A stretch of 64,000 bases of DNA from Nymphaea colorata (Eukaryota > Streptophyta > Magnoliopsida > Nymphaeales > Nymphaeaceae): NCBI RefSeq assembly GCF_008831285.2, contig NC_045147.1, positions 10,597,427 through 10,661,426 on the forward strand, given 5' to 3'. The position numbers were made by a program, and so were the translations under genes. Below the pieces are notes generated by a model, which was given only the letters and a program-made list of their open reading frames with translations, was not told the origin of the DNA and ran no database searches. Positions 10-53,400 of this stretch are shown here, piece by piece (positions within the stretch are counted from its first letter, which is position 1; every line of letters begins with the position of its first letter).

Positions 10-3000
10 CTGATGTATTGTTACAGGAATGCCAAGTTCCTCACAGGATGCAATCAGTAAGACTGAAGCAGAAGATGCAGAATTCTTATGGGCTAACAAG
101 TACAAATTTGAGATAATTAGTGGATGGATCTTCTGCAGATATGAACGTTTGCCCACTATCTTCCACACTTCCCGCATAAAAGAATTTTGAAGAAGCAAAA
201 CTTTCAGGTGAGAGTATTCTGATGACTGAAGGAAAAGAAACATATTATAAGTTTTACTCACGAAGCAATAAGTTTATTCAGCTGTAAGGACAAAACCTAA
301 TCTTGCTTGGACTATTTCAAGACCATTACGAACCTGTAGAACTCTTTGAATAACTGGTAGCACAGATACAATAACTGCCTGAGGCTTAAGACATCTTAAA
401 AATTCCTTCAGTAGGAAAGAAGCCCACTCAGCCTCAGAATCAGACAATGAACTCATTACAAGGGGCATGCAATATGACATACACATTTCTGCAGCAAATG
501 AGCCCATTAATCTCAGAGCCCCTTCTCCAGCCAACTTAGCTGCAAATTGAAGACGAGACCCATTGCTTGCAAGAAGATGAAGAGGTGCAATGAAGAGATA
601 AGCAGACCTGACCGTTTGAGGAAAATATGGTGACTCCAACAAACAATAAGCCGATGGCCTCCTGTTCCAAAGGATGAAGATTTAGTACAGAGATGATACA
701 ATTTAAATATCACAAGGAAAAAACAAAATAAGCACGCCAACAGAACTAGGCCAAAATGAAGGAAATTTTCACTGTGCCAAAAATGAGTCTTTTTTGTCTA
801 TTTACCATAGACAAATAATTTACAGTTTCCATTTATTATTTATAGAGGCCCAGAAGGTATACATGAATGTCCGCAAAAAGGAACTAAATTTTATTTGAAT
901 AATGAAATAATAAATCAATTAATCAACATTAAATACCTCTTCCAGTCCTTTTGGATGCATTCTTCAACAAGAAATGCCACATGAGGAGGAAGCTTCTGGA
1001 ACAGTCCTGGCAACAAACCGTGTTCAGTGTATGCAACTAATGAAATTGGGTCAAAAAGTGGCCTCTTCAAATAAAGTTCAGCTAACACACACCCCACAGA
1101 AAACATGTCACGTGCGACATCCTCTGACTGGGACCTCTGGTGGGATGATTTCTGCTTCCACAGTAACAATTCTTGAAATCCCAGGTCTCCACCATCATCA
1201 ACAATGTTAAAGTACTCGAGAAGGGTATTTAGGTCAATATCACTGGGATGTGGTAAGTCATCATATTTCCTTGGTAACTCTGGACTAGTCCTCTGGGTGG
1301 TGCAATCTTGGGGAGAATTATAACATGGACTTAAGTGCCTATTTTGTTCACAGAAAGACATGGTTCTTTCTAATTGTTCCAAATTGTTTTCAACTTCCCG
1401 CAGGCTTCCATCTGCCATTCCTATGCAGCTGGAAGCATCCTCAGTTATGGCTGTAGAAACTATGTCACAATTTGATTGTACTTGAGATATGATTTCTTGC
1501 TGAGGTTTAAACCTATCAGGTTTCTTCAGCAAAGACCTCCGACGCTTTGGATGTGGTTGAGTGAAGAGCTGGCAACGGCCAGATGATCTCGGTCTCTGGG
1601 GCTCAGAAGAAGGTAAAGTGACATTCTTAGCTACAACAGCAGCCTCACCAGAAAGCTTGTAACCAAATGTAATATCAAACCAATCGTTAATCTCCTGTGA
1701 TACACGGTCACTTTCCAAAGCAGCACGATGCAATGATATAAATTCTTCAGGACTACCTGCCCATGATGGCACTGCAAGATTGCTCATTCCATCATGTACA
1801 GAAGAGAAAATTCTAGGGTCGGTATAAAACTCCGGGATGCATTCATCAGGAGTCCACTGGTATAGCCTTTGCATAGTGGAAGGATATTCATTGGGCTCAT
1901 AAACAGAGCGAACAGAAGACCGCAGTATACTCAGGGGCAAGCGCCTTGCTTTATAGCTGCAGACAGCCAATTCTGAAAGGCATTCATCTGATACATGATG
2001 TGGAATTTCAGAGGTTGAATATGTGAAATCCAATTGTTCATCCCCTTTTGCCAATCTCCACTTGCTCTTCCGAAGGTCTCTCCATCCAGCATCAGAGCTC
2101 TCATCAGGTTTCACACTAAAGTCTATCACCCAGGGCATAACAGTATGAAAAGTCGGATCGCCCCATCTTCTACCAGCTAACTGGTTCAAAATGAGGAGGT
2201 ATTCATAGTTACTCAGTTCACCGTTCCACCACATCTTAAAATCTCTTTGCCAATCACTAGAATTTGTTAACCTCAAATCAGCATAAAGACCAGAGCAGGG
2301 GCAATTGCCATGGCATAAACAAACCCTAGGCTGAGAGGCAACAAGTTTAGTTTCATTCATCAAGCTCAGCCTAGCTCTCACACTGTATCTCTCTAACACA
2401 CTGAGCCAACACCAAAAAGAATCAGTCAGTTTTACACTAGAAGGTGATAAACTCCCGTGAGTAGCCCCTAGGGAATGGATATACCCCAATGCAGACAGCA
2501 ACTGGTACATCAAAAATCGAATGTGCCAGTCAGATTTTAATGCTTCAGGGCTATAATGTAGAATATTTTCCAACGTGTATGGAGCCTTTGGAAGAATTAA
2601 GTTGATATATCCAGGCATTTGTAACGTACCTATAGTAGGAGCAATATTAGGATGCCTTAATCTTCTTGAACTAACATTTTTACCACGGTTGCCTAATCCA
2701 AGTAAAGATGAAAAATATGTGCCTACTTCTTTGCTTGATCTGCCTTCCAAAAGAAGAATGAGTGATAACATCAAACTGTGTTCAAAGGATCCCGATACGT
2801 ATCTATGGAGAAGTTCCTCTATGACCTTATAAGAACCATAACCAGCATATGCACTTGGCGCTAAGGCAGATACAGTCTCTTCACAAAAATTCGTGTGATC
2901 ATCACAAGCATGGGACTCATTCTCCGACACAGGTAGCGCTTCATCTTCTTCTTCAAACGCTCCCAAATTAACCTGGACCTGGTTTCCATTGATTTTTGAC

Positions 3001-4068
3001 AATGTCGGTTTGTCTTTCTCGCATCTATTTTCTGTGGTGCCATTTCTCAAGATCTTTCGGTCACTGTAAGCAAACAGATAATAATAATAAGGCCCATGTT
3101 GTTAAGTACATGATTGTTTTAAAGTAAGACATCCTGCACATAACAACTTATAGACGCACGAGCAACTGTAACTCGATAAAAGTTAACCATAAACTTCGTG
3201 CACACATACATGTATCTTTGCAAGCATCTGTTTTCAGTGTTTTCTACAGCCACCAGTTCAAACTGGACGGAATCCTCCTTACTGTATCACATAATCAAAA
3301 CTCTGAATAAGCAAGCCCAATATAAACAAGAAAATATGTGCATATCAAACAAGCTCTCAAATTCGCATTCATTATGATGTCACCAAACGAAAGATCCAAC
3401 GGCATACCATGGCAATGTGCCGTCCCTCTTATTCAATTCAACCTGGAATAAGGAACAGACTGCGCTCAGAATAAGGCAAAGAAAACATGCACATACAAAG
3501 TTTTTAAGATTGTAACCCACTATGAGCCGGATACTATTTCAAATATTCTGACTTTAGAAGCGCGATATACGACATTTTTTAAAAAAAAAAAGAGAGAGAG
3601 AGAGAAATTAAAACAAATCTGGCGAACAATTCAACTCTTCAGAACCTAAAACAATAAAAATAGTCTAAAGTTTCTTTAAACGCATAAAGAAGCGTAGCAA
3701 CCCCTTTTGGAAAGGATAAAAAGGGTCGATGCCTCTTAAGAAAAAGCTTCACCAGTCGCTCAGAGCCGGTTTGCAGAGACCAACCAAGAAGACACTAAAG
3801 AATACGAGGAAATATGTTCTAAAAGCTAAACCGTCACTTGGCAGCCCCAGATTACGATGAGGGACGAGGAAAGAGCGAGATTGTAAGCGAAAAACAATGA
3901 GTTGATCACCTGGCACACTGCAGTGGAACCAAAGGGGAGAGGAGAATCGGAGACCCCGTAACAGAAGAGGACTCTGTTGGAGAGATCGCGCTCGATCCGC
4001 TTCTGCAAGCACTCGAAACAATTCTTCTGTTGGGATTCGTGATCGAAGGTCGTCGCTTCGTCCCTCAT
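10..4068 (-). CDS. GFS12: GFS12-type kinase-like/BEACH protein, N-terminal part (gene runs off the left edge)
   Basis: Six coding exons on the minus strand join in phase: 4068-3910, 3442-3408, 3281-3210, 3063-937, 661-334 and 225-10, giving 979 codons. All introns are GT-AG. The ATG at 4068 gives the family-like start with CFECLQKRI. A kinase-like N lobe and catalytic loop lie at about residues 225-310. A BEACH domain (WWNGELSNYEYLLILNQLAGRR) is inserted at about 363-568. The kinase C lobe then resumes (FSVGCVLAELY, then KRRPSAYCLLESPYFP across the exon 4/5 junction). The HRD motif reads HGS-L, so this is a pseudokinase. The WD40 repeats expected at the C terminus would lie outside the window. 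In Arabidopsis, GFS12 acts with another BEACH protein in vacuolar protein sorting and disease resistance; WDR81 is the animal relative. The name rests on remembered family similarity. The large exon 4 and the domain order make it secure, while the two small exons (35 and 72 nt) are less certain. Confidence 0.9.
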
Positions 4069-6629: not shown

Positions 6630-8533
6630 ATGGCTAGGAAGAAGATCAGAGAGTACGATTCGAAGAGGTTGCTGAAGCAACACTTGAAGAAGATCGCCGG
6701 GATTGATTTGGAGATACGCTCAGCGCAGGTTTTCCTGATACCCATTCTGCTGTACTCTTTCTAGATGCTTAGAACTGTCGCAGTAAGATTTCAATGGCAG
6801 TCAGCTAATTTAACTTGGGTACCGATTTTTCCTGGTCAATGTTCTGGTGTCTTCTTGCACTTCTTCTTTTCTTGGGATCAATTTTCAAGTTATTTCTTCG
6901 CTCTCTACAAATTGCCAACCCCATATATCTAACAAGTGAATGAGCACATGGAAGAAATGGGGTGTATTTTCCATTTTCGCAGCAAACGTCGCTGAGTTGT
7001 TGATTTGGTGCCAGAGATCGTCAAATTCCAGTGTACTTTTTTGGTTGGTTGTCCTTACTGCTTGGATGGTGAAACTTGCTAGGTCACAGAGTCAACGGAT
7101 TTCACCGAGTTAACCGACAGAGAGCCATGGCTTTCGTCAACCAAGCTAGTGGTGAAGCCGGACATGCTGTTTGGAAAGCGTGGGAAGAGTGGACTGGTTG
7201 CACTGAACCTTGATCTAGCTCAGGTGTCTGCATTCGTGAAACAACGTCTAGGAAAAGAGGTAGATCTGCTTCCTGCTTCTCATTGAATGATTAATCTTCT
7301 GAAGGCAATCTCGTGTCTGGGATAGTTCGACTCGTGACTCATGAAGATTTTTTGTAGATCGTTACGTTCATTTGGATAAATTTGTTTGGCCTAGGATTTT
7401 TCAATTTTCAGTAAGACGTGAAACTCTACATAGATCACGAAAATCACCGTTTGGTTGATTCTACATGCTTTTTACATGTATATAAGTGGTGTCCTATGTC
7501 TAGAGGCATGTCAATACCATGGGCACTGGAACCCCTTGCAGTAACACTAATTCGTAAGTATCAAGAGCAGAATCCATCAGGAACACTATTTCAAGAGATG
7601 AGCACGATACACAGTCATGGGAATCTTAATTTCCATGTGATTTTGGATATCATGTCGTGCATAATATCTGTTACTGTTAATCTCTAAGTTTTTACTTGGG
7701 TATATCAATTTTCAGTGTTTCACTTGATCCTGCATATCATTTCCTAAATGGTCGACCATGTGTGTTCCAATTTGGTTCCCACTCAATGCTCATAAAAATT
7801 AACATGTCTCTTCCCTTCCTACAGTGTCTCAATTTTGTATTCCAGCTTTGGCAAGTATGATCAACACGTAGATATATACAGTTATTTGTTGTTTTCATTT
7901 AATCATCATTCGCAATTTGCAGGTTGAAATGGGTGGGTGCAAAGCTCCAATTACCACCTTCATCGTGGAACCTTTCGTTCCTCACAGTCAGGAGTTCTAT
8001 CTGTCAATTGTCTCTGAAAGACTGGGATGTACCGTTAGTTTCTCCGAGTGCGGTGGGATTGAAATTGAAGATAACTGGGACAAGGTACATATCACCTACT
8101 ATCGACCACTTTTCTAATGACTAATTCACAGCTGCTGTACAAAAGCATGATTAATGCAATTAGTTGTGATTCCTGAAAAATCTAAATCCAGTGTTTTGAA
8201 TCCATGTTTGATGGTCAACTGCTTCAAGGCGAAGTACATGTAGGAAAATCTGCAGAGAAGTTGGAGAAACCTGCAGTCTAAGGGGAACAGCAATTGAAAG
8301 TTTGAAACTAACCCTTGCACTTGTATCAGCACATTTTTCCTGCCTTGCAGTGCCTGTTCTGTGAACTTCTCTTTGCAAATTGAGCTGATTCCTTTATTCC
8401 CCAATTCTTGCACCCAAGAAGAAGTCTTCTATTCAGCTTAGCAAATGCTATATATTTCCTTATTCGTTTGTTCCTTTGCATTGATAGAAATGTAGCACCA
8501 ATATCTGTAACCCGAAAACAGCACTCACGCAGG

Positions 8534-8574
<41 letters not shown>

Positions 8575-11500
8575 AGAAACTGAGGAGAAGAAGCCGTAGC
8601 CAAAATGGTTTGCACGGCCTCTATTTATAATCTCATTTTCAGAATTCTAAGAGTCTCCAATCGTAGAATCCTAGGAGATTTCACAAGCTCCAAGGACATT
8701 AATTACATCATAGAAACCTAAGAGACTTCACATATTACAAGGATATTAACTACAACATAGAATCCTATGAGACTTCCCATATAACAAGGATATTAACTAT
8801 AACATAGAATCCTAGGAGACTCTTCACATGTTACAAGGACATTAAATATTTTAACACATTCTACAAGGAGGTGGAATCCTAAGAGACTCCTCTTCAACGT
8901 GCTGGTGAAGGATTTATATTTTAACACCCTCCCTCAAGTTGTGCATGGTTTTGCACCATGTACAACTTGCCTTTTAGAAACCAGAATCGTTCCTTTGTTA
9001 ATCCTTTTGTAAATAAGTCTGCAACTTGTTCATCTGTACGAACATAAATAGGCTGAATTTCCTTGTCTTCCACCTTTTGTCTAACAAAGTGTTGATCAAT
9101 CTCAATGTGCTTTGTTCGACCATGTTGTACGGGATTAAAGGCAATGTTAATAGCGCTTTGATTATCGCACATTAACATTGATGTTTTAATCTTTTCTCCA
9201 ATGTCTTCTAGCAAATGTCTAACCCATGTAACTTCAGCAGTACCTGCAGCCATGCATCTGTATTCAGCTTCAGTGCTGGATCTTGCTACTGCCTTTTGCT
9301 TTCGACAACTCCAAGACACAAGATTATGTCCAATGAAAATACAAAAACCAGAAATGGACTTTCTTTGATCGGGATCTCCAGCCCAATCTGCATCTGTGAA
9401 TGTCATAAGTTGATGTCCAGTAGTTATATTTTCACTCTTACCATAAACTAAGCCATCTCCTGTTGTCCCTTTAAGATATCTTAATATTCTTTTGACAACA
9501 TCCATGTGAGTATCTCTAGGTGCATGCATAAATTGGGATACTTGATTCACAGCATATATAATATCTGGTCTAGTAAATGTAAGATATTGAAGTGCCCCAA
9601 CAATACTTCGATATTGCGTAGGATCTTCATATAACTCCCCATCTTGAGCACTTAGTCTTTGATTTAGAACACTAGGAGTTCCAACAGGCTTACAATCAGA
9701 CATACCTGACTTTTTCAACAAATCCAACGTGTATTTCTGTTGTGTCAATGTGAGGCGATTATTGTGCCTATCAATCTCCACTCCAAGAAAGAATCGTAAA
9801 TCACCAAGCTCTTTCATTTTGAAGTTTTGCATCATCAAAACTTTAGCTTCTTCTATGTGTTTTTCTGAATTGCCTGTGATAACAATATCATCAACATATA
9901 TAAGAAGTAAAGTAAATATGTTTTCCTTTCGATAAATGAAAAGAGAGTGATCTAGAGGACATCTCCGAAAACCACATTCTTGAATCTTGCAAGAGAAACT
10001 GTCAAACCACGAACGTGAGGCCTGTTTAAGTCCATAAATAGATTTTCTTAGTTTGCAAACCCATGCATGAGAGTCTCCTTTCGTGTATCCTGGAGGTTGT
10101 TCCATATATACTTCCTCCCTTAAATCACCATGAAGAAAAGCATTCTTCACGTCCATTTGATGTAGTCTCCATCCATATTCAACTGCCAATGATATAATCA
10201 CGCGAATTGTTCCCATTTTGATCACAGGGCTGAATGTCTCATCATAATCTTCTCCATATTGTTGTGTAAACCCTTTTGCTACTAACCTTGCTTTGTGTCT
10301 TTCTATGCTGCCGTCAGGTTTGTATTTAATTTTGTATACCCATTTGGAGCCCACTACGTTCTTTTCGTGTGGCCTCGGAACGATCTCCCATGTTCCACAT
10401 TCATGCAAGGCATCCATTTCTTCTTTCATAGCTTTTCTCCAATGATGTGATTTTGATGCTTGATCAAATGAAGTAGGTTCTTCCTCCTTGCCAACTTTTG
10501 CCATGAATAACTGAAAATCAAGTGATAAAGAATCATAGCTAACCCACCTGTGAATGGGATGACGAATGCGTTGGGATCTTCTAAGGTGGGGCATGTTGTC
10601 TTCTTCACTGTGAGCATCTCTGTCCCTTAGTCGTCGACTGTAGATAAGACCCGAATACCGATGTGCATCGTTGCTCTGTTCATTATTGTTTTCGTGATGA
10701 CTTGATGACTGTGTTGGATCTTCTTGATTTTCACTTTGAGCCATATCCGATGGTTGTATTGCTCTCTCTGAATCTTCACTTTGAGGCACATCATTTTCTA
10801 TAACAGGATCTGCATTGAATAACTGTGTACTGGTCCAGGGATCATAAGATTCAATGGTCATAGGCATTTCATTTGTATTATCAAAACTATGTTCATCAAA
10901 AATGACATTTCTTGAAGTTTTGATACGTTTAGTTGTTGGATCATAGCATCGAAAACCTTTATATTCATCAGCATATCCAACGAATCTACATTGAATAGCT
11001 TTGTCTTGAAACTTGTTCCTCAAGGCAGCATCAACGTGAACATAGCATACACAACCAAAAACCTTCAAGTTCTTGTAATCAGGTTGTTTGCCTAAAAGTG
11101 TAAAATATGGCGATTTAGACATCAAGAGTGTCATAGGCAAACAATTTATTATGTATACAGCAGTATGGAAGGCTTCAGTCCACAAGGAAATGGGCACATT
11201 AGTATCATGCATCATGCTCATGGCGCTTTCAACTATATGTCGATGTTTCCGCTCAACTACACCATTTTGTTGTGGTGTGTAAGGGCAGGAAATTTGTCTA
11301 GTTATCCCTTTTTCACGTAGAAATTCAATAAAATCAAGCGAGGAATATTTTCCCCCTCCATCACATTGAAAATGCACCACATTGGATGAAAATTTAGTTT
11401 GAATCATGGCATAGAAGTTTCGAAATATGTGAGGTACTTCTGATTTGTGTTTCATGAAGTAAATCCAGGTGAAACGTGAGTAAGAGTCAATGAATAAGAC

Positions 11501-13509
11501 ATAATATCTTGACCCAGACATGGAATCAATAGGGGCTGGCCCCCATACATCAGAAAAAATAGTTTCAAAAGGTTTGGAAGCTCTTTGATTTATATTATGG
11601 AAAGGTAAAACATGACTCTTACAAAGTCCACAACTTGAACATTTTTTGACACTTGAAGTAAGAGGTAAACTTGATCTTGGAATGAGACTATCTGTGACAA
11701 GTTTTTCAATGAAATGTCGACCACAGTGTCCTAGCCGACTATGCCACAAATCAGATTCCAAAAATTGGTTAGGGCCCCTTACTTTTGATTGAAAATGGCA
11801 AGAACTTGGTACTGATGACGCATTATGAGAAAGAGAAAATGTCTTCAATCCTATATCAAAAGTGGATGAATCCTTGGGTAGACATTCCTTGAGGACGTAC
11901 ATATTCCCTTGACGCTCCCCTCTCGCGAACATTTTCTTCGTTTGGAGGTCCTTGACATAGACAGAAGAAGGTGTGAATTCAACAGAAGAGCTTGTATCAT
12001 CAATGAGTTTAGAAATGGATATGATGTTCTTTTTTATATTGGGAGCAAGAACAACATTAGACAGTGATAGAGACGAGGATGACAATGGAATATGTGCATT
12101 TCCAATATGTGTAATAGGATGAGATTTTCCATCACCTGTTATAATGCAACTTCTACCGTAATGAGGGGATAAGTTAGTCAATTTACCTGCATTTCCTGTC
12201 ACATGGGTAGCTGCACCTGAATCCAAGAACCATTCTCCCTGCTCATTTTGCTTTATAGTCATCTTTGAGAATGCGGCCATCAATAGCTGTTGCATATCTT
12301 CAGCGGTGGATTTAGAACTTTGTCCTCCTTGTTTATAATCATGTCTTACCCCTTTGTTTTTATTTTGAGGATTAAACCAACATTGTGCCTTCATGTGTCC
12401 TTTCTTGTTGCACTTAAAACAAATTGGTATTTTTCTTGAAGTATCCAAAGGAGACATACCTTGGTTATGTGGTGTTGGTAGAATGCCACGACCACCATGG
12501 TTGGAGTTCCCATGGCTCTTACCAAACTTTACATTCATAGCCAACACATTTTGGGAGTTCCCTTGATCAGTCCTTTCAATGACTCTTTTCATATTCATTT
12601 CATGTTGGAGAAGTTTACCTTGTAGTTCATTGAAGGAAGGCAGAACAGGAAGGACCTCAAGAGCTGTAATAAAAGCATGATAATCATGCCCAAGTCCATT
12701 CAAGGTTTGTTGCACCTTTTCCTTATCAGAAATGTTATTCCCTGAGGCAGCAAGTTGGTCTGCGACGGCCTTAATACGCCCCAAATAATCCATGATAGAC
12801 GTTGAACCTTTGCTCAAATTCTGAAATTCTTTCTTTAAGTACATAATTCGAGCTTCTGATATTTGGGAAAAGGTATCAGCAAGGGTTTCCCATAATTCTT
12901 CTGCAGTACAATCATCAGAAACTGAAAGTAACACTTGTTGAGATAAAGTGGACAAAATATACGCAACCAGACTTTGATCACGTCTCATCCACATAGCATG
13001 TTCAGGATTGTTGTCTTCATGAACAGCAATAACTTCTCCTGCCTCATTTTTTATTTCCTGTAAGACGGATATTGGTGGAGCCTTTGTTGAACCATCGAGA
13101 TGTCCAAAGAGGCCTTGACTTCTTATGAAAGGCATGATTTGCCTTTTCCAGATCAGATAATTCTCATGGTTGAGTTTTTCGGTAATAAGGTGAGGAAGAA
13201 AACTTGAGGACATGCCAGAATGCGAAAGGTTTTCCATGACAGCAGAAAGGAATGGTATATAGGTAGAAGATGAGAGGGAAAGAAGACACGATATAACAAG
13301 ATGTGTCCTTGGTAAGCAAGAAGAAAAAGGAACAAGAATTGCGCAAGAGAAAAGTAAATTCAGGATAGAGACAAGATGAGAAAAGAGTTCTAACCAGATC
13401 AGACCTGTTTGGGCATTTCGTTTGGTAGATATAACGTAACCTGGCGCTCTGATACCATGATAGAAATGTAGCACCAATATCTGTAACCCGAAAACAGCAC
13501 TCACGCAGG

Positions 13510-13560
<51 letters not shown>

Positions 13561-16546
13561 AGAAACTGAGGAGAAGAAGCCGTAGCCAAAATGGTTTGCA
13601 CGGCCTCTATTTATAATCTCATTTTCAGAATTCTAAGAGTCTCCAATCGTAGAATCCTAGGAGATTTCACAAGCTCCAAGGACATTAATTACATCATAGA
13701 AACCTAAGAGACTTCACATATTACAAGGATATTAACTACAACATAGAATCCTAGGAGACTTCCCATATAACAAGGATATTAACTATAACATAGAATCCTA
13801 GGAGACTCTTCACATGTTACAAGGACATTAAATATTTTAACACATTCTACAAGGAGGTGGAATCCTAAGAGACTCCTCTTCAACGTGCTGGTGAAGGATT
13901 TATATTTTAACATGCATGTCTAACCATGTGCATTTTATCTGCATGGTTAGTTTAGTTGGAAACTTGGAATTGGCAATTAGACCACTGAATCCATGTTTGT
14001 GTAGATTTTATTTGATCTGCTATGTTTCCTCTTGGATCATGCAGGTGAAAACTGTATTTCTACCAACTGACAAATCTCTCACACCAGAGGCATCTGCACC
14101 ACTGATTGCCACACTTCCTTTGGAGGTATAACTGAAGTTTTCACTCTATCCTTAACCTATCACTTAAAACATTAATCCGTACATCTATTTACTTTGTACA
14201 ATAGAATCTAGTATGTTTGCATTTTTCATCAGTGGGTTTAGAAAAGTTTTCATCGCCTTTGGAGGTATAACTGAAATCTTCACTCTATTCTTAATTCATC
14301 ATTTACATTAATACATACATCTATTCACTTTGTGCAATAGAATCATATGTTTGTATTTATTTTTTTTTATCTATGGGTTTGGAAAAGTTTTCAGCTTCCT
14401 TTCAATTTTCATTTGAAATTCTTATCATTTTTTATTTATTTAGATTCGAGGAAAAATTGGAGATTTCATAAGAGCTGTTTTTGCAGTATTTCAGGGTATG
14501 ATATCTTATTCCAAATTTGCTTAGTTTATGGTTTGCCCCTATTTTATGAACTAAAGTTGCATTCAATCATGCAGACCTCGACTTCACCTTCCTAGAAATG
14601 AACCCATTCACTTTGGTGAATGGAGAGCCTTATCCATTGGATATGCGTGGAGAGTTGGATGACACTGCTGCATTTAAGAACTTCAACAAGTATACTATTT
14701 TCTACTCACTTAATATATATATATATCTGTGTGTTGTGCATGTGGTGTTGTATTCTGAACACATCATATTCAATTTCACAATTTTTTGCATGTGATTTTT
14801 TTCGTGATTATTAATGTATTATCTCATCACACAGATGGGGAGATATAGAGTTCCCATTGCCTTTCGGTAGAGTGTTGAGTCCAACTGAAAGCTTTGTGCA
14901 TGGTTTGGATGAGAAGGTAATCTGTAAAAGTTGAGTTTTCTAACTGCTGTTGCATATGATGCATCATAACTTTTAAAATATGCTTCCCGCAGCTCCATAC
15001 TGTGTTTCAAATGGTTAGCCGGGTAATCCGAACTCATCTTGGCATCATCATCTTAGATTTTGAATTTATGATTTTGAACCCTTGACAAACACAGTAATTT
15101 ATATTTTACATGAACCCTTCATCCTTGTTGTGTATGAAAATCTTCTTTCCATTTTCCTATTCATATAGAACGATATCATACTTCTGCAAAATTGAAAATA
15201 GGTAGCTGTCCATAAAAGTGGTGTTTTTGGAGTTATAAGAAGTTGAATAATACCTGTCCTCATTTGTCTTGGACCTTCATTCTTTAACATGGGAAAATGT
15301 GTAATTGTTATTGTATGAGCTTCACTTGAATAATCTCCAGGCCTATATTACAAGGCCTTCTGCAAAATTGTATTAAATGCTGATGTTGCAACTGCCTAGT
15401 GAATATATGTGATGGGATCTATATGCGGAGAATTTCTTGTTTAGAATTGCGTTCTCTCTTTCTCTCTCCCTCTCTCTCTCTCTCTTACGCATGCTCTTTA
15501 AATCTGAGACTTATCCTCACAATATAATGACAGACAAGTGCCTCGCTGAAATTCACAGTTCTGAACCCAAAAGGGCGCATCTGGACTATGGTGGCTGGAG
15601 GTGGTGCAAGTGTCATATATGCCGATACTGTAAATTTCAGTCTTTCATGTTCTACCTTATACTCCTAGCTCTGTGGGTTACAGTTTTTCGCAATATACTG
15701 ATATTCTGTCGCTTTCTGGTTGCCTGCAATATAGTTTTGAATTTTTATTTACATTTAGGTCGGAGACTTGGGCTACGCATCTGAACTTGGCAATTATGCT
15801 GAATACAGTGGTGCCCCGAATGAAGAAGAGGTGTTGCAATATGCAAGAGTTGTTCTTGATGTAAGAACCTAGGAATTTTGTCAGACTTCATATAAATGTC
15901 TCCGTTTCTTTTATTGTGCACTCAAAAGATTCACATCCCTTATTCTGAAAAGCTATGCTTAACTGCAGTGTGCTACTGCCGATCCTGATGGACGTAAACG
16001 GGCTCTTATAATTGGAGGCGGCATTGCTAATTTCACTGATGTTGCTGCCACATTTAATGGCATCATTCGTGCTCTAAGGGAGAAGGTTAGGCTCTGTCCT
16101 GGAGTAATTACTAATTAGTGTTGGATGTTTTAATTCTTCTGCTAAGCTGTGTGCAAGTTCTGTTTTTTGTAGGAATCAAAGTTAAAAGCCTCAAGAATGC
16201 ACATTTATGTTCGCAGAGGTGGCCCGAATTATCAGATTGGGTTGGCTAAAATGCGGGCTCTGGGTGAAGAACTTGGAGTTCCCCTTGAGGTAATAAGATA
16301 ATGACCTTGCATGTCCATTTTCCTTTCCATTTGGTGGCATTTCCATTCTATGGTCCACTTGTGAAGATCTTGTAGGGCTTCCTGTGCTGAGAGCCTTGAA
16401 ATTTTTTCTGATCTTCAGCCTTGTCAATGTTCACATCGACTCACTGCACAATATTTTTGCCGTTCTTGTTACAGGTATATGGGCCAGAAGCCACAATGAC
16501 TGGAATCTGCAAACGAGCAATTGACTGTGTCATGTCAGCTGCGTGA
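6630..16546 (+). CDS. ACLA: ATP-citrate lyase, A (alpha) subunit
   Basis: Twelve exons join in phase: 6630-6728, 7083-7259, 7923-8084, 14045-14125, 14444-14495, 14575-14689, 14835-14916, 15534-15629, 15759-15860, 15969-16085, 16173-16289 and 16475-16546. They give 424 codons including TGA, a 423-aa protein, which is the usual length for plant ACLA. All introns are GT-AG. The protein starts [16 protein letters not shown], contains an ATP-grasp fold ([15 protein letters not shown], then [18 protein letters not shown]) and then a citrate-binding domain ([34 protein letters not shown]). With ACLB, which carries the phospho-histidine, it makes the cytosolic enzyme that turns citrate, ATP and CoA into acetyl-CoA and oxaloacetate for wax, sterol, flavonoid and fatty-acid elongation pathways. 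Intron 3 (8085-14044) is swollen by a copia element. Without the element and one target duplication it would be about 520 nt. Confidence 0.97.
8482..8926 (-). repeat. Copia 3' LTR (445 bp)
   Basis: This is the LTR downstream of the minus-strand gag-pol. It holds 16 AG units (8539-8570), a minus-strand TATAAATA-type promoter box (8622-8630) and four tandem copies of a 47-bp unit (8664-8851). The polyprotein stop codon TAA lies at 8921-8923, just inside its edge. Confidence 0.96.
8664..8851. repeat. 47-bp minisatellite inside the copia LTR, four copies
   Basis: Units start at 8664, 8711, 8758 and 8805 with a constant 47-bp period and share a core like tagaatcctaggagacttc. The other LTR carries the same array. 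A fifth partial core (aatcctaagagactcc) follows near 8876. Confidence 0.9.
8921..13237 (-). CDS. Copia gag-pol polyprotein, 1438 aa, uninterrupted
   Basis: I chose the ATG at 13237 ([11 protein letters not shown]) because it begins the copia gag region. The open frame extends 89 codons further up to 13504, but that part crosses the primer-binding site and LTR. Domains in order: gag (about 1-250); zinc knuckle CX2CX4HX4C (273-286); aspartic protease with DSGA (339); GAG-pre-integrase with HX3H..CX2C (LWHSRLGH); integrase catalytic triad D563, D626 and E662; reverse transcriptase with YVDD at about 1114-1117; and RNase H ([15 protein letters not shown]), ending DLFTKGL. Every catalytic motif is present and there is no stop or frameshift, so the element could be autonomous. 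It is carried antisense to ACLA. Activity is inferred, not shown. Confidence 0.95.
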   Translation of the reverse strand: MENLSHSGMSSSFLPHLITEKLNHENYLIWKRQIMPFIRSQGLFGHLDGSTKAPPISVLQEIKNEAGEVIAVHEDNNPEHAMWMRRDQSLVAYILSTLSQQVLLSVSDDCTAEELWETLADTFSQISEARIMYLKKEFQNLSKGSTSIMDYLGRIKAVADQLAASGNNISDKEKVQQTLNGLGHDYHAFITALEVLPVLPSFNELQGKLLQHEMNMKRVIERTDQGNSQNVLAMNVKFGKSHGNSNHGGRGILPTPHNQGMSPLDTSRKIPICFKCNKKGHMKAQCWFNPQNKNKGVRHDYKQGGQSSKSTAEDMQQLLMAAFSKMTIKQNEQGEWFLDSGAATHVTGNAGKLTNLSPHYGRSCIITGDGKSHPITHIGNAHIPLSSSSLSLSNVVLAPNIKKNIISISKLIDDTSSSVEFTPSSVYVKDLQTKKMFARGERQGNMYVLKECLPKDSSTFDIGLKTFSLSHNASSVPSSCHFQSKVRGPNQFLESDLWHSRLGHCGRHFIEKLVTDSLIPRSSLPLTSSVKKCSSCGLCKSHVLPFHNINQRASKPFETIFSDVWGPAPIDSMSGSRYYVLFIDSYSRFTWIYFMKHKSEVPHIFRNFYAMIQTKFSSNVVHFQCDGGGKYSSLDFIEFLREKGITRQISCPYTPQQNGVVERKHRHIVESAMSMMHDTNVPISLWTEAFHTAVYIINCLPMTLLMSKSPYFTLLGKQPDYKNLKVFGCVCYVHVDAALRNKFQDKAIQCRFVGYADEYKGFRCYDPTTKRIKTSRNVIFDEHSFDNTNEMPMTIESYDPWTSTQLFNADPVIENDVPQSEDSERAIQPSDMAQSENQEDPTQSSSHHENNNEQSNDAHRYSGLIYSRRLRDRDAHSEEDNMPHLRRSQRIRHPIHRWVSYDSLSLDFQLFMAKVGKEEEPTSFDQASKSHHWRKAMKEEMDALHECGTWEIVPRPHEKNVVGSKWVYKIKYKPDGSIERHKARLVAKGFTQQYGEDYDETFSPVIKMGTIRVIISLAVEYGWRLHQMDVKNAFLHGDLREEVYMEQPPGYTKGDSHAWVCKLRKSIYGLKQASRSWFDSFSCKIQECGFRRCPLDHSLFIYRKENIFTLLLIYVDDIVITGNSEKHIEEAKVLMMQNFKMKELGDLRFFLGVEIDRHNNRLTLTQQKYTLDLLKKSGMSDCKPVGTPSVLNQRLSAQDGELYEDPTQYRSIVGALQYLTFTRPDIIYAVNQVSQFMHAPRDTHMDVVKRILRYLKGTTGDGLVYGKSENITTGHQLMTFTDADWAGDPDQRKSISGFCIFIGHNLVSWSCRKQKAVARSSTEAEYRCMAAGTAEVTWVRHLLEDIGEKIKTSMLMCDNQSAINIAFNPVQHGRTKHIEIDQHFVRQKVEDKEIQPIYVRTDEQVADLFTKGLTKERFWFLKGKLYMVQNHAQLEGGC
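8927..8938 (-). other. Copia polypurine tract
   Basis: Read on the minus strand, CTTGAGGGAGGG sits directly before the 3' LTR, where second-strand priming occurs. It also encodes the last residues of the polyprotein. Confidence 0.9.
13446..13457 (-). other. Copia primer-binding site (initiator tRNA-Met)
   Basis: Read on the minus strand, TGGTATCAGAGC follows directly after the 5' LTR. This is the standard plant copia sequence complementary to the 3' end of initiator methionine tRNA. Confidence 0.95.
13458..13912 (-). repeat. Copia 5' LTR (455 bp)
   Basis: This is the promoter-bearing LTR for the minus-strand element. It holds 21 AG units (13515-13556), five more than its partner, which accounts exactly for the 10-bp length difference. 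A TATAAATAGAGG box lies on the minus strand at 13604-13615, so transcription should start a few tens of bases further down, near the CT-rich (minus strand) microsatellite. Confidence 0.96.
14117..14394 (+). repeat. Tandem duplication of the ACLA exon 4 end and intron 4 start (two 139-bp copies)
   Basis: Copy 1 (14117-14255) and copy 2 (14256-about 14394) both begin cctttggaggtataactga and continue with closely similar sequence down to gaaaagttttca. Copy 1 contains the last nine bases of exon 4 and its GT donor. Copy 2 repeats the same exon tail and donor inside the intron. Confidence 0.93.
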
Positions 16547-31269: not shown

Positions 31270-34200
31270 GTAAACTTAAAGGGACTGCGAGTATTCTCCA
31301 TATTAGGCCTTGAATTTGGTAGCTCGAAATTGAAAATAACGTATGGTTTTTGTTTGTGGCTTTTCGCCATCTGAAAAATTCGGAGAATGGGGAGAGATTG
31401 CATCAAGGAACTCGAACGTCAGGCCTCAATCGGTAGAAATGCTATTTGAAAACTTGAGTAGCACTTGTTCTTTTGGCGGGAGATTTCATATGATGTTGAA
31501 TAGTTACGAGAGCGAAGTTTCTATGGACATGAAGTGATATATGTGCTGGGCCTAATTATGCATGATATACGACTCTCCTTGCTAGGATACAATGTGGTGC
31601 AGTGCATCTAAGAGTTGGTTTCTGCACATCTTTTCAGAATATGGCTGATAAGTGATAGGCTGCTCTTTAGATGCATTTTGTGTTATTGGAAACTATTTTG
31701 ATGCTTCATCGGAGGAAACATTACTCCTGCGAGGACAGGATTCATACGGTGATGTTTCCAAACTAGCGACTGTCTTCCCAACCCATTCCTAAAACCGAAG
31801 ACCACAAGTGTTAACATGTTCATAGTGCAACTCTCTTCCCACTCCATTCCTAACAACCAAGGACCCACAAATGTTGACATATTCAAGTGTCATATTCACC
31901 ATTGGCTGCATTCACATGTTCGTTACCTATGTGTTTTTTGGAACATCATACTTGAGCATTCATCTCCAAGTAGAACCCTGACACGGTTCCAAATCCAATC
32001 GATAATGTATATGAACCTAGACATGGCAGGTGGTTAACAGTTCCCTTGCAAGATTGAAGAGTAGTTGCTCCAAATTCTTGGAAATAACTTGACTTATGTT
32101 GACTATGTACTTCGTCGTCAACATATGGAATCCTAGCTCAACTAGTAGCCAGCACCAGTATCTCCTCACTTTTCCATACATCCTGTGTGTCTTCAGGTGC
32201 TCAAAAATGGAGTGATTATGGCACCTGTTCCCAACCAGAATAATTACAAGGACCACAGCCTTTGGATTCAAAACATATTCAGGGTATCATGGAGTCAGCA
32301 GCCACTTAATGGATATTATGCTATAGGATGGTAAGATGTTGATGCATGTCCTTGTGTCTTTAGCACTGTGCTACCAAGATTTCAAAGATTGATCATTCAT
32401 TTTAATATGCATCTGAAGTGTTAAAATTGCTGCAAAGACCTTCTACAATCACCAGGCAGGGTGTTTTATCAGAAAACGACGATTTTAATTCGTGCAAAGC
32501 TGACCTACTAGTTTTGCTCAACCACATAGGCACATACTCCAAAAGAGCCACAAACTTGATCTAGCCAATCATGCTCAAGTTATATCTTATATGTCCAATG
32601 TCCATCATGCCTTGTTTGAAACTCCTATAGTACGCAGACAGACTATTTAAGTATCTGGCTGGATTGCGGACACAATTGTTGGGTTGTTCCTTCATTGATA
32701 TTTTTAACATCCTTTCTGAGTTCAGGTCCAAAGTGCAAAAATTTCCAATTGCCCAATACCTGACTAGCTGGATCATGGATGTTGTATGGGCTGCCATTTG
32801 CACCCAAATCCAGTTCAGTTACATTCGTAGGTCCAGCATTCCATTCCTTTTGCTTCCTTCGGTTTATGGTTCTTGGGAGGTACATTCCTGAGAAATTAGC
32901 TTCTGGTGTTGAGGCATTCTATTAACTATGTTCATGAAACAATGCATCATCGTTTTCTTTAGGTATATGCCTCGATAGTTTGAACAAGTTGACTGTGAAA
33001 TGGTGCAAATGCAATAATGAAAGGGGATTTGAAGCCACTGGCCAGTAAAACCTAGTGGAAGAATTTAACAAAGAAGTAGGTGTTCGCCTGTTTGGGCAGG
33101 GACTGCATTTCTGGTTGATTTTGAAAATGATTTTTCCCTTAAACAAACATTGTTTTTAAAATTTGCCTGTTGAAGGTCAAAACCAAGGAAAATTGGGTAT
33201 GGGTGATCAGCTCAATGGAATCTGATGATATATTTACTGAAATTAACTTAAATAAAAAAATAAGCTGGAATATGCTTTGATACAAGTTGGACAATTTCAT
33301 CAGGCACTTCTTGTGCTGCTTGGATACCTTGAGATAAATGATCTAGTCTAAATTTTCAGTAATAGGTTTATGCATGAAGAAAAGGTTGTGCAGCAGAAGG
33401 ATTATCCATTCAGCCTCTTCTTACGTGTCTACACCATTGCAATGTTAATGTTGAAAAAACGAAAAGTGAGAAACAGGAAAAAACACTTTTTTTTTTAAGA
33501 AAAGATAAAAAATAAAAACCAATTTAGTGCATTTATTATGCATTTTATTTCACATTTTTTTTGATTTTGTCAATTAATATCAACATGAAGTAAACTTTAA
33601 ACTTAACCTAAATTATTTATCATCATTAAAACATTATTTTAATCATCTTATCTACTCATTTTTTTTATCTTTTTATAGTTTCTAACTTATTTTATTTTTA
33701 CATAATTTTTATGAATCTTTTTCTTTTTTGAAAAATTGCCGAGGTTTGCTCGAGAAAAACAATTTTGTCAAAAAAAACATGAGAAAAACCTCATCTTTGA
33801 AAACCTGAGAGTGATATTTCTGACAATGGTCTACAGTATGTTATCCGTATCGTACGATACGGACGCGTATCGTACGATACGTATCGTATAGGTCAAGAAA
33901 ACCTATACGATACGTGTTTGAAACACGATACGGGTCCGTATCGTATGCGTATCGTCCGTATCGTACGATACGGGGGCCGTATCGTACGATACGGGCGATA
34001 CACCCCCGTATCGTACGATACGGGCGATACACCCCCGTATCGTACGATACGGGAGAAAACACATATTTCTTTATTTTTTAAAAGTTTAAACACTCCTCCC
34101 CCTCTCTCTTCTTGTATTTAAAGACTCCAATAGACGTAGGAGGGAGAGATTTTGCCCATTTTCATCAAAAATAACCAAGGATTCATCAATTTGGAAGATA

Positions 34201-39238: not shown

Positions 39239-42200
39239 GTTTTTCATAGTTCAGAGAAGGAGGACAGACAGAACTCTTCATGTTGATGAACTGGTGGAAT
39301 TGTTCCATACAGCATTACAATTATTGATGAATATCTTTGTATAAGTTCTGAAACTCATGCCTGTTTACTATCTGTATCTGATGACAGAATGTAGCAAACA
39401 AATCTAATTTGTTCCACATGGTTCCTGGCCATGGATATCCACGATAGTGATCAAATAATTACTGAATAGTCCATACTTGCCTGTTAAAGAGAGAAGGAGC
39501 TGGTGATGAACATGTAATTTTAGAGGTCTAGTGGTGATGTAATGTAGTTTTATGGTCATTTAGATTACCGTTAGGAGTGGTGGTTGTGGTGGCAGCAGAA
39601 TGAGTACTATTCATTTGGTTTTTCTTGGGAACAGAACTATGATAATGTGACATTTATTTTTTCGAAAAGGATCTATGAACAATCATGGTTGGATAAGAAC
39701 CAATGTTGTAAAAAGCGTATCATAAGCCGTATCGGTCTGGCTTTAAGATACGTTGTATCGTAAAATATCGTAACATATAGTAACCGTATTGTTTTTTTTA
39801 ATAAATCAGAAAAAATTCGAAAAAAATTCGAAAAAATCATAAAAAATAAGTAAAAATCAAGAATAATACATTCTTCATAAAAAACATGTTTTACAGAATG
39901 ATAGACTTATTATTGCTATAAAGTTACGGTTCATCATTCTTAAACATCAAAATTCATCAAGATGAAATTGTGAAAATATTCAATGTCAATACATGTAAAA
40001 TGAAAGCACTCTCAACTCTCATTCATAATCCTCATCATATTCATTCTCATCCTCATCTCCATCTTCTTCTTCATCTTCATCTTCACGATTTTAAAAAACC
40101 CCTTCCTTCTACGGGAATCAGCCACCCACGTACAAATCCATGGTTTAATCGATGATTTCACTTTGAAAATCGATGATTTAACGATGGAAATTAATGATTT
40201 CCCTCCACGGCGGCACAATCTCTATGTTAGAAATGAAGAAGGGGAGGATTTTTATAAAGAAAACTCGAAAAAGAGGGATTCTAGCCCCCCTTTCTGGAAA
40301 TCAGCCTGTATCGTACGATACGCCCCGTATCGTATACGATACAGGGGTTGTATCGTATCATATTTTCAAAACGATTCGATACGTATCGTACGATACGGGT
40401 CCGTATCGCACGATATGTACAACACTGATAAGAACTCAAAGATATCTTGTAATGATAAAAAATATGGTGTTTAGATACTGGTATGCTTATTTTGTAATGT
40501 GGAATGAGTTGGCAAGAGAACCCGGAACTATGATGATGTGAAATCTAGTTTTTTCGAAAAGGACTATGAACACTCATAGTGGGATAAAACTAGGAACTCG
40601 TATCTTGTTAATGATACAAAGTTGGTGTTAGAGATTGGTGTGCTTATTTCGTAATAAAGTTATGACGAGATGGGCACATGCTTATCAGTTGGAGTTGGGC
40701 ATATCATACTCTTTTCATAATCAGTTATTTAGATGCAACAAAAATGAAATGTAAGTTCAATGTTTAAATGCACTTTTGGTAGAGTCTAGGTACCATGAAA
40801 ATAACCACAATTGCAACTTGTCAGGTATGTATATATATTTTTTTCCAATGGAACCTGAACATGTGGAAACCTGTGGACTCCAACGTGCTTCAGGTTCATA
40901 TTAGTATCATCTAACTGCAGCATGGGAGCCACCATACATTCACCAACTCATCATGTGTTTGATTGATCTTGCTCAGACATGAGGAAGATGCTGAAATGAG
41001 TCATTGACTACTTATATAGAATTTGCTGCTTCTCAATAATTTCTGTTACATATATATTGGCAATAAGATATTTCTGCAAGGGTGACAAAGCTTGTACCAT
41101 GGAATATCTATTAGATTCAACATCCCACTGTCAATATCTCCATGACATGTAAGCAACATACACCAAATAGAAGATGTGACTTTGTCATCTAAAATCATGG
41201 TTTTGATTGTCTGCCATGTGCCCATGTCCATCAATGCTATATTTCATCATGGTTCCTGCCATGCCCTGGGACTCTGTATTCTGTCATCATTTCACCATCA
41301 CATGTTATTATCTAGTGCTTTCACCTCACTGGCCATATCTTTATACAATGATTTAACCATAAATCAAGGTAAACAAAAATACAATTCTTGATTTATTGTC
41401 CTGGAGCTTGTTATGTTCTTCATGCATCAGTATAGTATATTTCTTGCAATCAAGCTTCCATGTGTATAATTCTGTTATTTTTCTAAGTCAAATGAAACCT
41501 GATTGCTGTGAACAGTCTCCATTCCCAATAAAATAAAATCTTCTTCTTTTGGTATACTTTTTTGTTGTGGGGGGGGGGGGGGGGGGGTTAAAGAAGGTTC
41601 CTAAGAAATACCCTAGTGACAGGAAAATATTCAGACTGAACTCAATGAGTTGTAGGCAGATGAAGTCTTAGCCTCTTAGGTCACTCTTCTGATTTTTAAC
41701 AAAACGTACCAAGCCATGAGAAAGGCTATCCAGATATGGACCACCGCATTTATATTGCATATGCTTCTGTGCATGTTGTAACCATAAAAAAAAGAGACAA
41801 AACCCTTATGAAATATAACTACGAGGGTTGAAAATGGTCCATTCAGTTCAAAAACAATTAAAAAGAAGAGGTATCTGAATTGCCGGATTTCATTTCAGCC
41901 TAGATAGTAAATACTTCTGATGAACACCTGTTCCAGCATTTGTAGCGTGATGGCAATGGCAGCTTTATGACAGCTTCCTTCTATCACTCCCTTAGGGTTT
42001 ATAATTCTTCATTTACCTTATGCTGTACGTTCTTGGTTAGATAAAAGTATTTTCTCCATCTTCCCTCTTTCTCAAGTGTTTAGTGAGAAAGGAGGGGTTT
42101 GGGGAGTTAGAATTACCTATTAAGTCAGGGAAGTATAGTAGCAATTTTCCTGTATTGGATTCCATTTCATATTGGAATCCTGAAAAGCTGATACCCGTCA

Positions 42201-50400: not shown

Positions 50401-53400
50401 ATGTTCCTTCTGAATGTCAAGTTAATAAATCACATGTCAATCCCTCTTCTTACCTGCAGACCATTGGGATAAAATCTGAACCTGCTGATTCTTCAAAAGG
50501 TCCTTTGGTTGACAATCTGTATAGTGATGAAAACTTGGGCTTAAAGAAACTAGATAGCTTTGGGAGATGGATGAGCAGGGAAATTGGTGTGGACTGTGAT
50601 GAACCACTGACAGCTTCTGATTCTGGTAACTACTGGAGTACTCTTAATCCCCAGGTCAGTGACAAGGATGTTTCTAGCTTGTCAGGTCATATGCAATTGG
50701 ATGTTGATCCACTGGGCCCTTCTCTTTCCCAAGAACAGTTGTTCAGTATTATTGATTTTTCACCAGACTGGGCTTATTCAGGTGTTGAGACAAAGGTATG
50801 TAATAAAGTTTGTAACTTGGATGTGCATCTGTTATGATAGAGGAACTTTTGGCCTTTTACAATATGTGAATATGGTGTCTAGTGTCTACCAATTAGTTGT
50901 TTGCAACGTTCATCAAAAGCATAATCACCTGTGGCTGTCAGTCATGGTTTTTCCACGGTAGATCTAGCTTTTGTTATTCAGTAGGCACTAAGCATTGCAG
51001 CTACTCTTTTCAGTTTTTGTATTGACCTTACTGTTTATCTGGTCAGGTTCTGATCTCAGGGGTGTTTTTAGCAGACACAGAATATCGCAGGGCCGTTAAA
51101 TGGTGCTGTATGTTTGGTGAGCTTGAAGTTTCCGCTGAGATCTTAACAAACAATGTTCTTCGTTGTCAAGCCCCTGTTCATTCCCCGGGTAGAGTTCCAT
51201 TTTATATTACCTGCAGTAACAGGTTAGCGTGCAGTGAGGTTCGGGAGTTTGATTATCGGGAAAGACCTTCTGCTCTGTCGCTTCCTGTTGGATTGAAAGG
51301 AAATACTGAAGATGAAACTGTTCTTCAGGTTCGCCTTGCAAAGATGTTGGTCTTGGGCTCTGAAAAGAGGTGGCTTAGTTGCTCTCTTCAAAATTGTGAA
51401 AAATGTCACCTGAAAAAAGATATTCTTTCACTTAGAGGTGATGATACAAATGAGTGGGATGAGATTGAGAAGTCTGTAAAGCACATTGATGGAAACTATA
51501 GAAGTGCTAGGGAGCTTTTGATGCAGAAAATGCTCAAGGACAAGTTATATCAATGGCTTGTCTGTAAATCCCATGAAGAAGGAAAGGGACCAAATTTCCT
51601 GGATGATGAAGGGCAAGGTGTAATCCATTTGGCTGCTGCACTTGGCTATGAGTGGGCAATGGGGCCAATTGTTGCTGCTGGTGTCAGCCCAAGTTTTAGG
51701 GATGCACGTGGTAGGACGGGGCTTCATTGGGCTGCATATTTTGGCAGGTTAGTGGTTTTTCAATTGTCTAATTTTGGTCCATTCTGAGGACCCTTCTTTT
51801 TAGTAAATTGCATTTTTCTTTTTTTGACCTACAATATCTGGTAGTATTTTGGAACATGAGAAAATGCGAACAATGTCACTGAAAATTTGGAGGCCTGGGA
51901 AATTAATGTTGCTTTGTCTTTTCCTTTTAGTAGTTTGATGTCAATAGGATGAGATACCGTGCGAGTTGGGGGTGGTCATGAATAATGATGACATGAACAG
52001 GTTCCAACAGCAGAATGACTATTTGCAAATCTCCTACGTTGATTGATTTGACTAATTCAGCAAAGTTCACGTCTGATTCATTTGGATGGTTTCTTGTACA
52101 TGCCTGCTTCAGTTCACCACATTCTCACCATCCTTTCTTCCGATGCTTTTTTTTTTCCCTATCCTTAGTTCTTCGAAATTGTCGCTGATTTTCTCTTTAT
52201 TTTCTTAAAGTCTAACCAGTATGAATACAAGTTATCTGTTGAACAGTTCACAACAAACATGCAATCATGCTGCGGAAAAAAGAAAAAATGCATGTGATTC
52301 CTTTATAAAATGAAATCTCCTTTTTTTTGACATTATCAACGATTTCTTATGTCCATCCCCTTAATTTTGGGGTACTGGACTATTAATGCTTAAATTTGAA
52401 AAATGTTACTAATTAACTTTAAATTCTAATAAAATCTTTACTAAGTAGGCTATTATTTCTGCATTTTTAGTTGTTCTATCCTCCTATCCATCTGACCTCA
52501 TGGATGAGGTTGGATTTGTCCAAATTCATACAAGTGAGTCATCGAAATAATGTAAATATGATTTTGTGTTCCCCTATTTCTGAAGTTTATGGAGCATTAA
52601 TTTCGATATCTTTAAAATTTGATCTACACGTCCATTTTCAACAATCTTTTTTATCACTATAGATTTGGATGTTTTTTGAATCCCTGTTTGATTTCAAAAA
52701 CCAGCCTTAATCTGGATTCAATCTGGAATCTTCCTGTCCTATAGTACTTGCATATCTTATAAAGGTTTCAGAATCTCAGATATAATACAAAACATGAACT
52801 AGGGGTCTGAATATCTGCTTTCTTGGGGACAACTTTGCAGAAGTAATTACCATCTTATGTCACTTTCAACTAGAAACAGGAGCAGCTTTTTCTTCAGATC
52901 CAAGTGAAAGCTATCTGCTTTTTCTGTATGGTGGTCTGTTTCCAGGACACTGCTTGTTGTGGGTCGGTTAAGTATGCTATTGCTCAGTCTATAACTATAA
53001 CATACCCAATTCAACAAGTCTAATGAAGGATCACTGTGAGGTGGTCTGCCTGCCTTTATTAACAAAAAAAATCAGTATGTACACAAAAAGAATGCAGGCA
53101 TCATGACCAGAAAACCTCAAAACTGAGCAACCAGCTACAAAACACTGTCACTGCAAGCTCCATGACAGAAAACCGGCCATAGCAAATTCAGAACCACAAA
53201 CAAAACCAGATAAAAAGAGTCTCATGACCGGAAAAACAGAAAGATCAAGGGCTTCGGCATGGTCATCATACACGGCCCTGTCTCTATGCCGAATGAGGAG
53301 TTCGCTGACCTACGGAGAGATTCCTTCATTGGAGACCATCATGACATGCATTAAACATGTCAGGTGTTGCCATTTTTTTTGGCCATGCTCAGTTCCTGTT

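Follow-up and report, generated by a model that had tools for sequence, protein, structure and literature searches.

A full-length Ty1/copia retrotransposon of an apparently recently amplified family lies in the third intron of ACLA in Nymphaea colorata

We analyzed a 64,000-nucleotide stretch of the Nymphaea colorata genome (GCF_008831285.2, NC_045147.1, positions 10,597,427 to 10,661,426 of the forward strand; hereafter the window), which forms part of contig C10 in a 408-Mb assembly of 783 contigs. The window contains the gene ACLA, whose coding region lies on the plus strand at 6630..16546 and encodes 423 amino acids in 12 exons. Its third intron, 5960 bp long (8085..14044, plus strand), holds in antisense orientation a complete Ty1/copia long terminal repeat (LTR) retrotransposon of 5431 bp (8482..13912, minus strand), bounded by target-site duplications (TSDs). 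Without the element and one copy of the TSD, the intron measures 524 bp.

The element is flanked by an exactly matching 5-bp TSD pair, TGCAT at 8477..8481 (left) and at 13913..13917 (right). Its 5′ LTR (455 bp, 13458..13912, minus strand) and 3′ LTR (445 bp, 8482..8926, minus strand) both start with TG and end with CA, and form a direct repeat with 97.6% identity over the alignment, indel counted; this repeat and the exact TSDs together indicate that the structure is not a product of chance. Outside an (AG)n array that differs in length by 10 bp, the two LTRs are distinguished by one substitution (8768 versus 13754). The primer-binding site (PBS) TGGTATCAGAGC directly adjoins the 5′ LTR (13446..13457, minus strand), and the polypurine tract (PPT) adjoins the 3′ LTR (8927..8942, minus strand), with ...TTGAGGGAGGG as the sequence immediately before that LTR. 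We take the PBS to pair with the 3′ end of plant initiator tRNA-Met; complementarity to tRNA-Met is a feature of most plant copia lineages. The initial annotation had described a single LTR substitution outside the microsatellite, a perfect 5-bp duplication, an intact PBS and PPT, and an antisense position that expands the third ACLA intron from about 0.5 to 6 kb, all of which are borne out here; its interval for the element, 8482..13917, took in the right duplication and left out the left one, and the element itself ends at 13912.

A single gag-pol frame of 1438 codons spans 8921..13237 (minus strand), its stop codon falling within the 3′ LTR. Pfam domains occur in the order copia gag, Pol_BBD, gag_pre-integrs, rve, SH3 and RVT_2, so that integrase precedes reverse transcriptase in one pol. 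This arrangement, the TG and CA ends of the LTRs and the 5-bp TSD are all as expected of the Ty1/copia superfamily. The frame contains, all on the minus strand, the gag zinc knuckle CX2CX4HX4C (12380..12421), the protease DSGA (12212..12223), the integrase HHCC motif (11621..11743), the integrase catalytic segment with the second Asp and the Glu separated by 35 residues (11246..11365), the reverse transcriptase YVDD (9887..9898) and the RNase H motifs (9095..9397). The integrase D,D-35-E signature is present, with every catalytic triad residue kept.

Within the 5′ LTR, a 47-bp unit repeated 3.8 times (13650..13831, minus strand; 3′ LTR counterpart at 8664-8845) lies upstream of a TATA-like site, and the (AG/TC)n array (13511..13557, minus strand; 3′ LTR counterpart at 8535-8571) lies downstream of it; the promoter-like TATAAATA (13608..13615, minus strand) may serve in transcription. 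An upstream open reading frame of 19 codons (13399-13458, minus strand) starts at the LTR/PBS junction and covers the PBS. In the rest of the window, blastn (E up to 1e-3) and tblastn (E up to 0.01) found no more copies of the family, and ARAGORN found no tRNA genes within the window.

Searches of the whole assembly placed the element in a large family. With up to 2 mismatches allowed, a 49-base segment of the integrase core matched 189 genomic places (95 forward, 94 reverse), against none for a reversed-pattern control; 100 of these places were listed and the other 89 counted. Four of the listed places cluster within about 31 kb on contig C6. The initial annotation had proposed a search for identical genomic relatives, and this one returned an abundance of near-identical places, but among the 100 listed the only exact match was the window copy itself. 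When most of the 3′ LTR (351 bases) served as the query, 496 first-look candidates yielded 40 scored matches, each 99-100% identical: the window copy, 31 matches at one common lower score, 1 partial match and 7 slightly lower ones. The first 20, in list order, of the 39 other scored matches were used as a sample of sister copies.

All 20 sister copies are full-length, with two LTRs and a PPT, and 19 have a recognisable PBS; they differ from the window copy at 16-38 internal positions. Counting the window copy, perfect TSDs flank 20 of the 21 copies. The 21 LTR pairs show 16 substitutions over 8791 compared sites, with none in 10 pairs, and an indel was left in 6 pairs after array trimming, which was imperfect. 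The window copy's LTR change at 8768 was missing from the LTR in all seven other copies examined at the outset (L005-L011). Of the 21 copies, 11 have a frame of at least 1437 codons, which indicates that the family includes intact-looking members. By these comparisons, the family amplified recently.

The age of the window copy itself was estimated in two ways. One LTR substitution in 824 sites corresponds to 93 thousand years (ky; 95% range 2-520) at 1.3e-8 substitutions per site per year, and to 485 ky (12-2705) at 2.5e-9. The faster rate is the one used for rice in PMC1940013; the slower is our own assumption for long-lived plants. Because of its wide 95% range, the LTR age taken alone was rejected as too imprecise. 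Adding the LTR change to the 10 private internal substitutions in 4531 bp yields 158 ky (79-283) at the faster rate and 822 ky (410-1470) at the slower, estimates that lean high, since they come from a comparison of 21 copies and some private changes may occur in unsampled sisters. Across copies, the number of LTR substitutions tracks that of private internal changes only loosely (rho 0.41, p 0.07). The median copy has 5 private internal changes; the count in the window copy is higher than in 12 copies, equal to that in 2 and lower than in 6, placing it at a tied 13th to 15th of 21. Judged by its private changes, the window copy is thus in the older half of the sample and not especially young within it.

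One of these private changes falls in the integrase. Beside the second catalytic Asp, the window copy has a charge-reversing substitution in the integrase core motif, and this change is lacking from every one of the 20 other aligned copies. Of the 188 other places, the 99 that were listed likewise do not have the window copy's variant: each differs from the 49-base stretch by 1 mismatch, always at this site, and a sharer of the change with one further mismatch could sit among the 89 places that were counted. Among the window copy's private changes, this is the one that was checked genome-wide; the rest are private among the 21 aligned copies. An acidic residue occupies this position in the integrase of 7z0h, which we take to be that of Ty1, in a related copia element around sister copy L022, and in three plasmid records of copia type, two of which are alike. 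The window copy's private coding changes comprise 5 non-synonymous and 5 synonymous substitutions and 0 stops. From the charge reversal we judge that its integrase is probably impaired and that the copy has probably lost full competence to move on its own; it may still be mobilised by sister copies.

Coding variation across the 21 copies indicates how selection acted on the family. Variants common to more than one copy include 9 non-synonymous and 15 synonymous changes, against a neutral expectation of about 3:1 (p = 4e-5), whereas private variants include 85 non-synonymous changes and 9 stops against 46 synonymous changes; shared and private classes differ (p = 0.011). The shortage of non-synonymous changes among shared variants points to purifying selection on gag-pol in the amplifying lineage while the family spread.

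The (AG)n array was considered separately. Total LTR length is unequal in 15 of the 21 copies, always by an even number of base pairs (2-16 bp). The difference bears no relation to private substitutions (rho 0.11, p 0.65), and it was rejected as a sign of age for this reason; one copy with 0 private internal and 0 LTR substitutions still has LTRs that differ in length by 14 bp. We tentatively suggest that reverse transcription itself may lengthen or shorten the LTR-borne array and thereby produce copies whose LTRs already differ on arrival, which, if true, would contradict the usual assumption that LTRs are identical at insertion. The inequality could also come from rapid change of the array once a copy is inserted, or from errors in its assembly. 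None of the papers listed in one literature search contained the phrase 'reverse transcriptase slippage', and we draw no claim on prior publication from it.

Several observations concern the surroundings and relatives of individual copies. One sister copy (L022) is nested in a related but distinct copia element. Beside two others lie coding pieces that, by their motifs, we take to be hAT-type (L024) and gypsy-type (L030). One scan of viral contigs with a 220-amino-acid piece of reverse transcriptase confirmed no relatives. Four relatives were found in plasmid records, all with less than 60% identity and of no use for dating. Three bacterial 'plasmid' records of 4.6-5.4 kb (L001, L002 and L003; NZ_CP115302.1, NC_015657.1 and NZ_CP115454.1) contain a copia/Ty1-type integrase and reverse transcriptase, and are probably eukaryotic element DNA drawn into bacterial assemblies.

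The host gene is well defined on both sides of the insertion. The ACLA exons on the plus strand are 6630-6728, 7083-7259, 7923-8084, 14045-14125, 14444-14495 and 14575-14689 (exons 1-6) and 14835-14916, 15534-15629, 15759-15860, 15969-16085, 16173-16289 and 16475-16546 (exons 7-12), and all 11 introns are of the GT-AG type. Pfam identified citrate-binding and ATP-grasp domains, and ATP-citrate lyases head the PDB matches (best E 3.1e-119). Measured outside the TSDs, the insertion lies 392 bp from the donor and 127 bp from the acceptor of intron 3, and both sites are intact. In intron 4, a tandem duplication (14117-14252 and 14256-14393, about 80% identical) copies the end of exon 4 and its splice donor, placing a decoy donor, CCTTTGGAG|GTATAACTGAA, downstream.

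ACLA had been called a single-copy-type gene, which is wrong for this genome. A second multi-exon locus lies on contig C2 at about 2126413-2130701, where nine protein stretches were matched, from residues 1 to 402; matches to single stretches were also found at four more places, on C10, C14, C8 and C5. With exons 3 and 4 of the window gene aligned, intron 3 of the C2 locus is estimated at about 364 bp, which is too short for any such element. Three ACLA loci are reported in PMC9479425 in Arabidopsis and three in each cotton genome or subgenome.

Taken together, these results make it highly probable that the locus holds a full-length Ty1/copia insertion from a recently amplified family, which has since gained a few substitutions, including one in its integrase, and that ACLA likely splices normally. 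The anatomy, the insertion itself, the size of the family, the near-identity of its copies and the private substitutions are observed directly, whereas methylation and silencing, loss of integrase function and normal splicing are inferences. Under this explanation, an RNA from a family member would have been copied into DNA from an initiator tRNA-Met primer, and integrase would have placed the copy in ACLA intron 3, leaving the 5-bp duplication. The copy would then have acquired its few substitutions, mostly C>T/G>A, one of them in its own integrase core. This class accounts for 9 of the 10 private changes of the window copy and 103 of 153 family-wide, a bias such as methylation and silencing of the copy would be expected to leave. 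The enlarged ACLA intron is most likely still removed normally, because the insertion leaves the donor, the acceptor and the reading frame intact and is set well away from both intron ends. Among the intronic transposable elements of PMC4417168, intact full-length ONSEN/COPIA78 is among those described from Arabidopsis, and long intronic retroelements, intact ONSEN included, are reported to be tolerated if heterochromatic. Splicing results in PMC12112155 show that 3 intronic ONSEN insertions, of 8 homozygous insertions, were spliced out whole.

Several points weigh against parts of this explanation. The 20 sister copies were chosen by best LTR match, which biases the sample toward young copies. 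The C>T/G>A excess is also typical of ordinary mutation bias in plants. Private variants are themselves somewhat short of non-synonymous changes relative to neutrality (p = 0.009), so some of them may predate insertion. The integrase change lies outside the catalytic triad, and PFV integrase likewise has no acidic residue at this position, which makes loss of integrase function uncertain. As regards the host gene, seven ONSEN insertions described in PMC12112155 were partly exonised by way of newly provided start or end sites, and normal splicing of ACLA therefore cannot be assumed.

This last point bears on a different outcome, in which the insertion lowers or reshapes ACLA expression through premature polyadenylation or aberrant splicing. 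Loss of heterochromatic marks is linked to premature polyadenylation near long intronic retroelements in the Arabidopsis material of PMC4417168, new start or end sites accompany antisense ONSEN insertions too in the cases given by PMC12112155, and the window element has two AATAAA motifs on the ACLA-sense strand. The second ACLA locus could buffer such a loss, and we regard an altered ACLA as unlikely. Similarly doubtful is the proposal that the copy is very young and fully autonomous, in line with the initial annotation, and may still move. An open 1438-codon frame, a single LTR substitution and a full set of triad residues speak for it, and the family does contain copies with 0 LTR substitutions and 0-3 private internal changes; the window copy has 10 such changes, twice the median, and its integrase charge reversal recurs neither in the aligned copies nor at the listed places. 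The description as recent therefore stands and 'very' overstates it, given the wide LTR range and the rank of the copy; likewise, the single frame with its catalytic triads was described correctly, and the alteration of the motif beside the second Asp leaves autonomy in doubt.

An assembly artefact, in which two similar copies were collapsed or joined, appears highly improbable. Collapse or mis-joining is conceivable with 189 closely similar places, and dinucleotide arrays are prone to length error. Against this, the TSD is exact at both ends, the ACLA frame is uninterrupted on either side, and the ten private changes are spread through the internal region. The intron flank at 8100-8476 occurs once in the genome, and no empty allele or haplotig of the locus was found in the assembly.

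Other features of the window lie apart from the insertion. A neighbouring gene at 915-3050 (minus strand) encodes a kinase-BEACH protein. Coding pieces at about 51026-55118 (plus strand) carry an IQ motif and a sub-threshold Pfam match to ankyrin, and presumably belong to a CAMTA transcription factor. Palindromic CCGTATCGTACGATACGG tandem repeats at 33956-34053 adjoin an inverted repeat (about 110 bp, 76%) at one of its arms. The two arms, within 33839-34053 and at 40314-40424, are 6.4 kb apart; the tandem repeats and the inverted repeat are possibly a DNA-transposon remnant.

The preferred explanation, an insertion from a recently amplified copia family, has parallels in known plant systems. 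By resemblance the element may be Ale-like, Ale being one of the named plant copia lineages alongside Ivana, Tork and others. The properties set out by Neumann et al. 2019 (PMC6317226) for plant Ty1/copia elements with a complete tRNA-Met primer site match it in several respects: a single polyprotein frame, integrase before reverse transcriptase and RNase H, a PBS presumably of the tRNA-Met type, a 5-bp TSD and a nearly all-coding internal region, with no extra open reading frame seen. ONSEN/COPIA78, as portrayed in PMC4417168 and PMC12112155, is similar in being an intact intronic copia element of about 5 kb, possibly antisense, with recent amplification; it is a separate family, and its heat response is an ONSEN trait that we do not claim for the window element. 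The rice burst families Hopi/Osr27 and Houba/Osr13, in the account of them in PMC1940013, also reached tens to hundreds of copies in a recent burst, but these are other families in another host.

The insertion is thus real and of an ordinary kind, full-length intronic copia elements being known from Arabidopsis. It also cautions against judging, by LTRs and an open frame alone, that a copy is very young and autonomous, as comparison with sister copies weakened both claims. The C2 locus, with its short intron 3, offers a possible built-in control for comparing ACLA expression. For Nymphaea colorata, the locus provides a clean example of a metabolic gene that was reached by what appears to be a recent retrotransposon burst.
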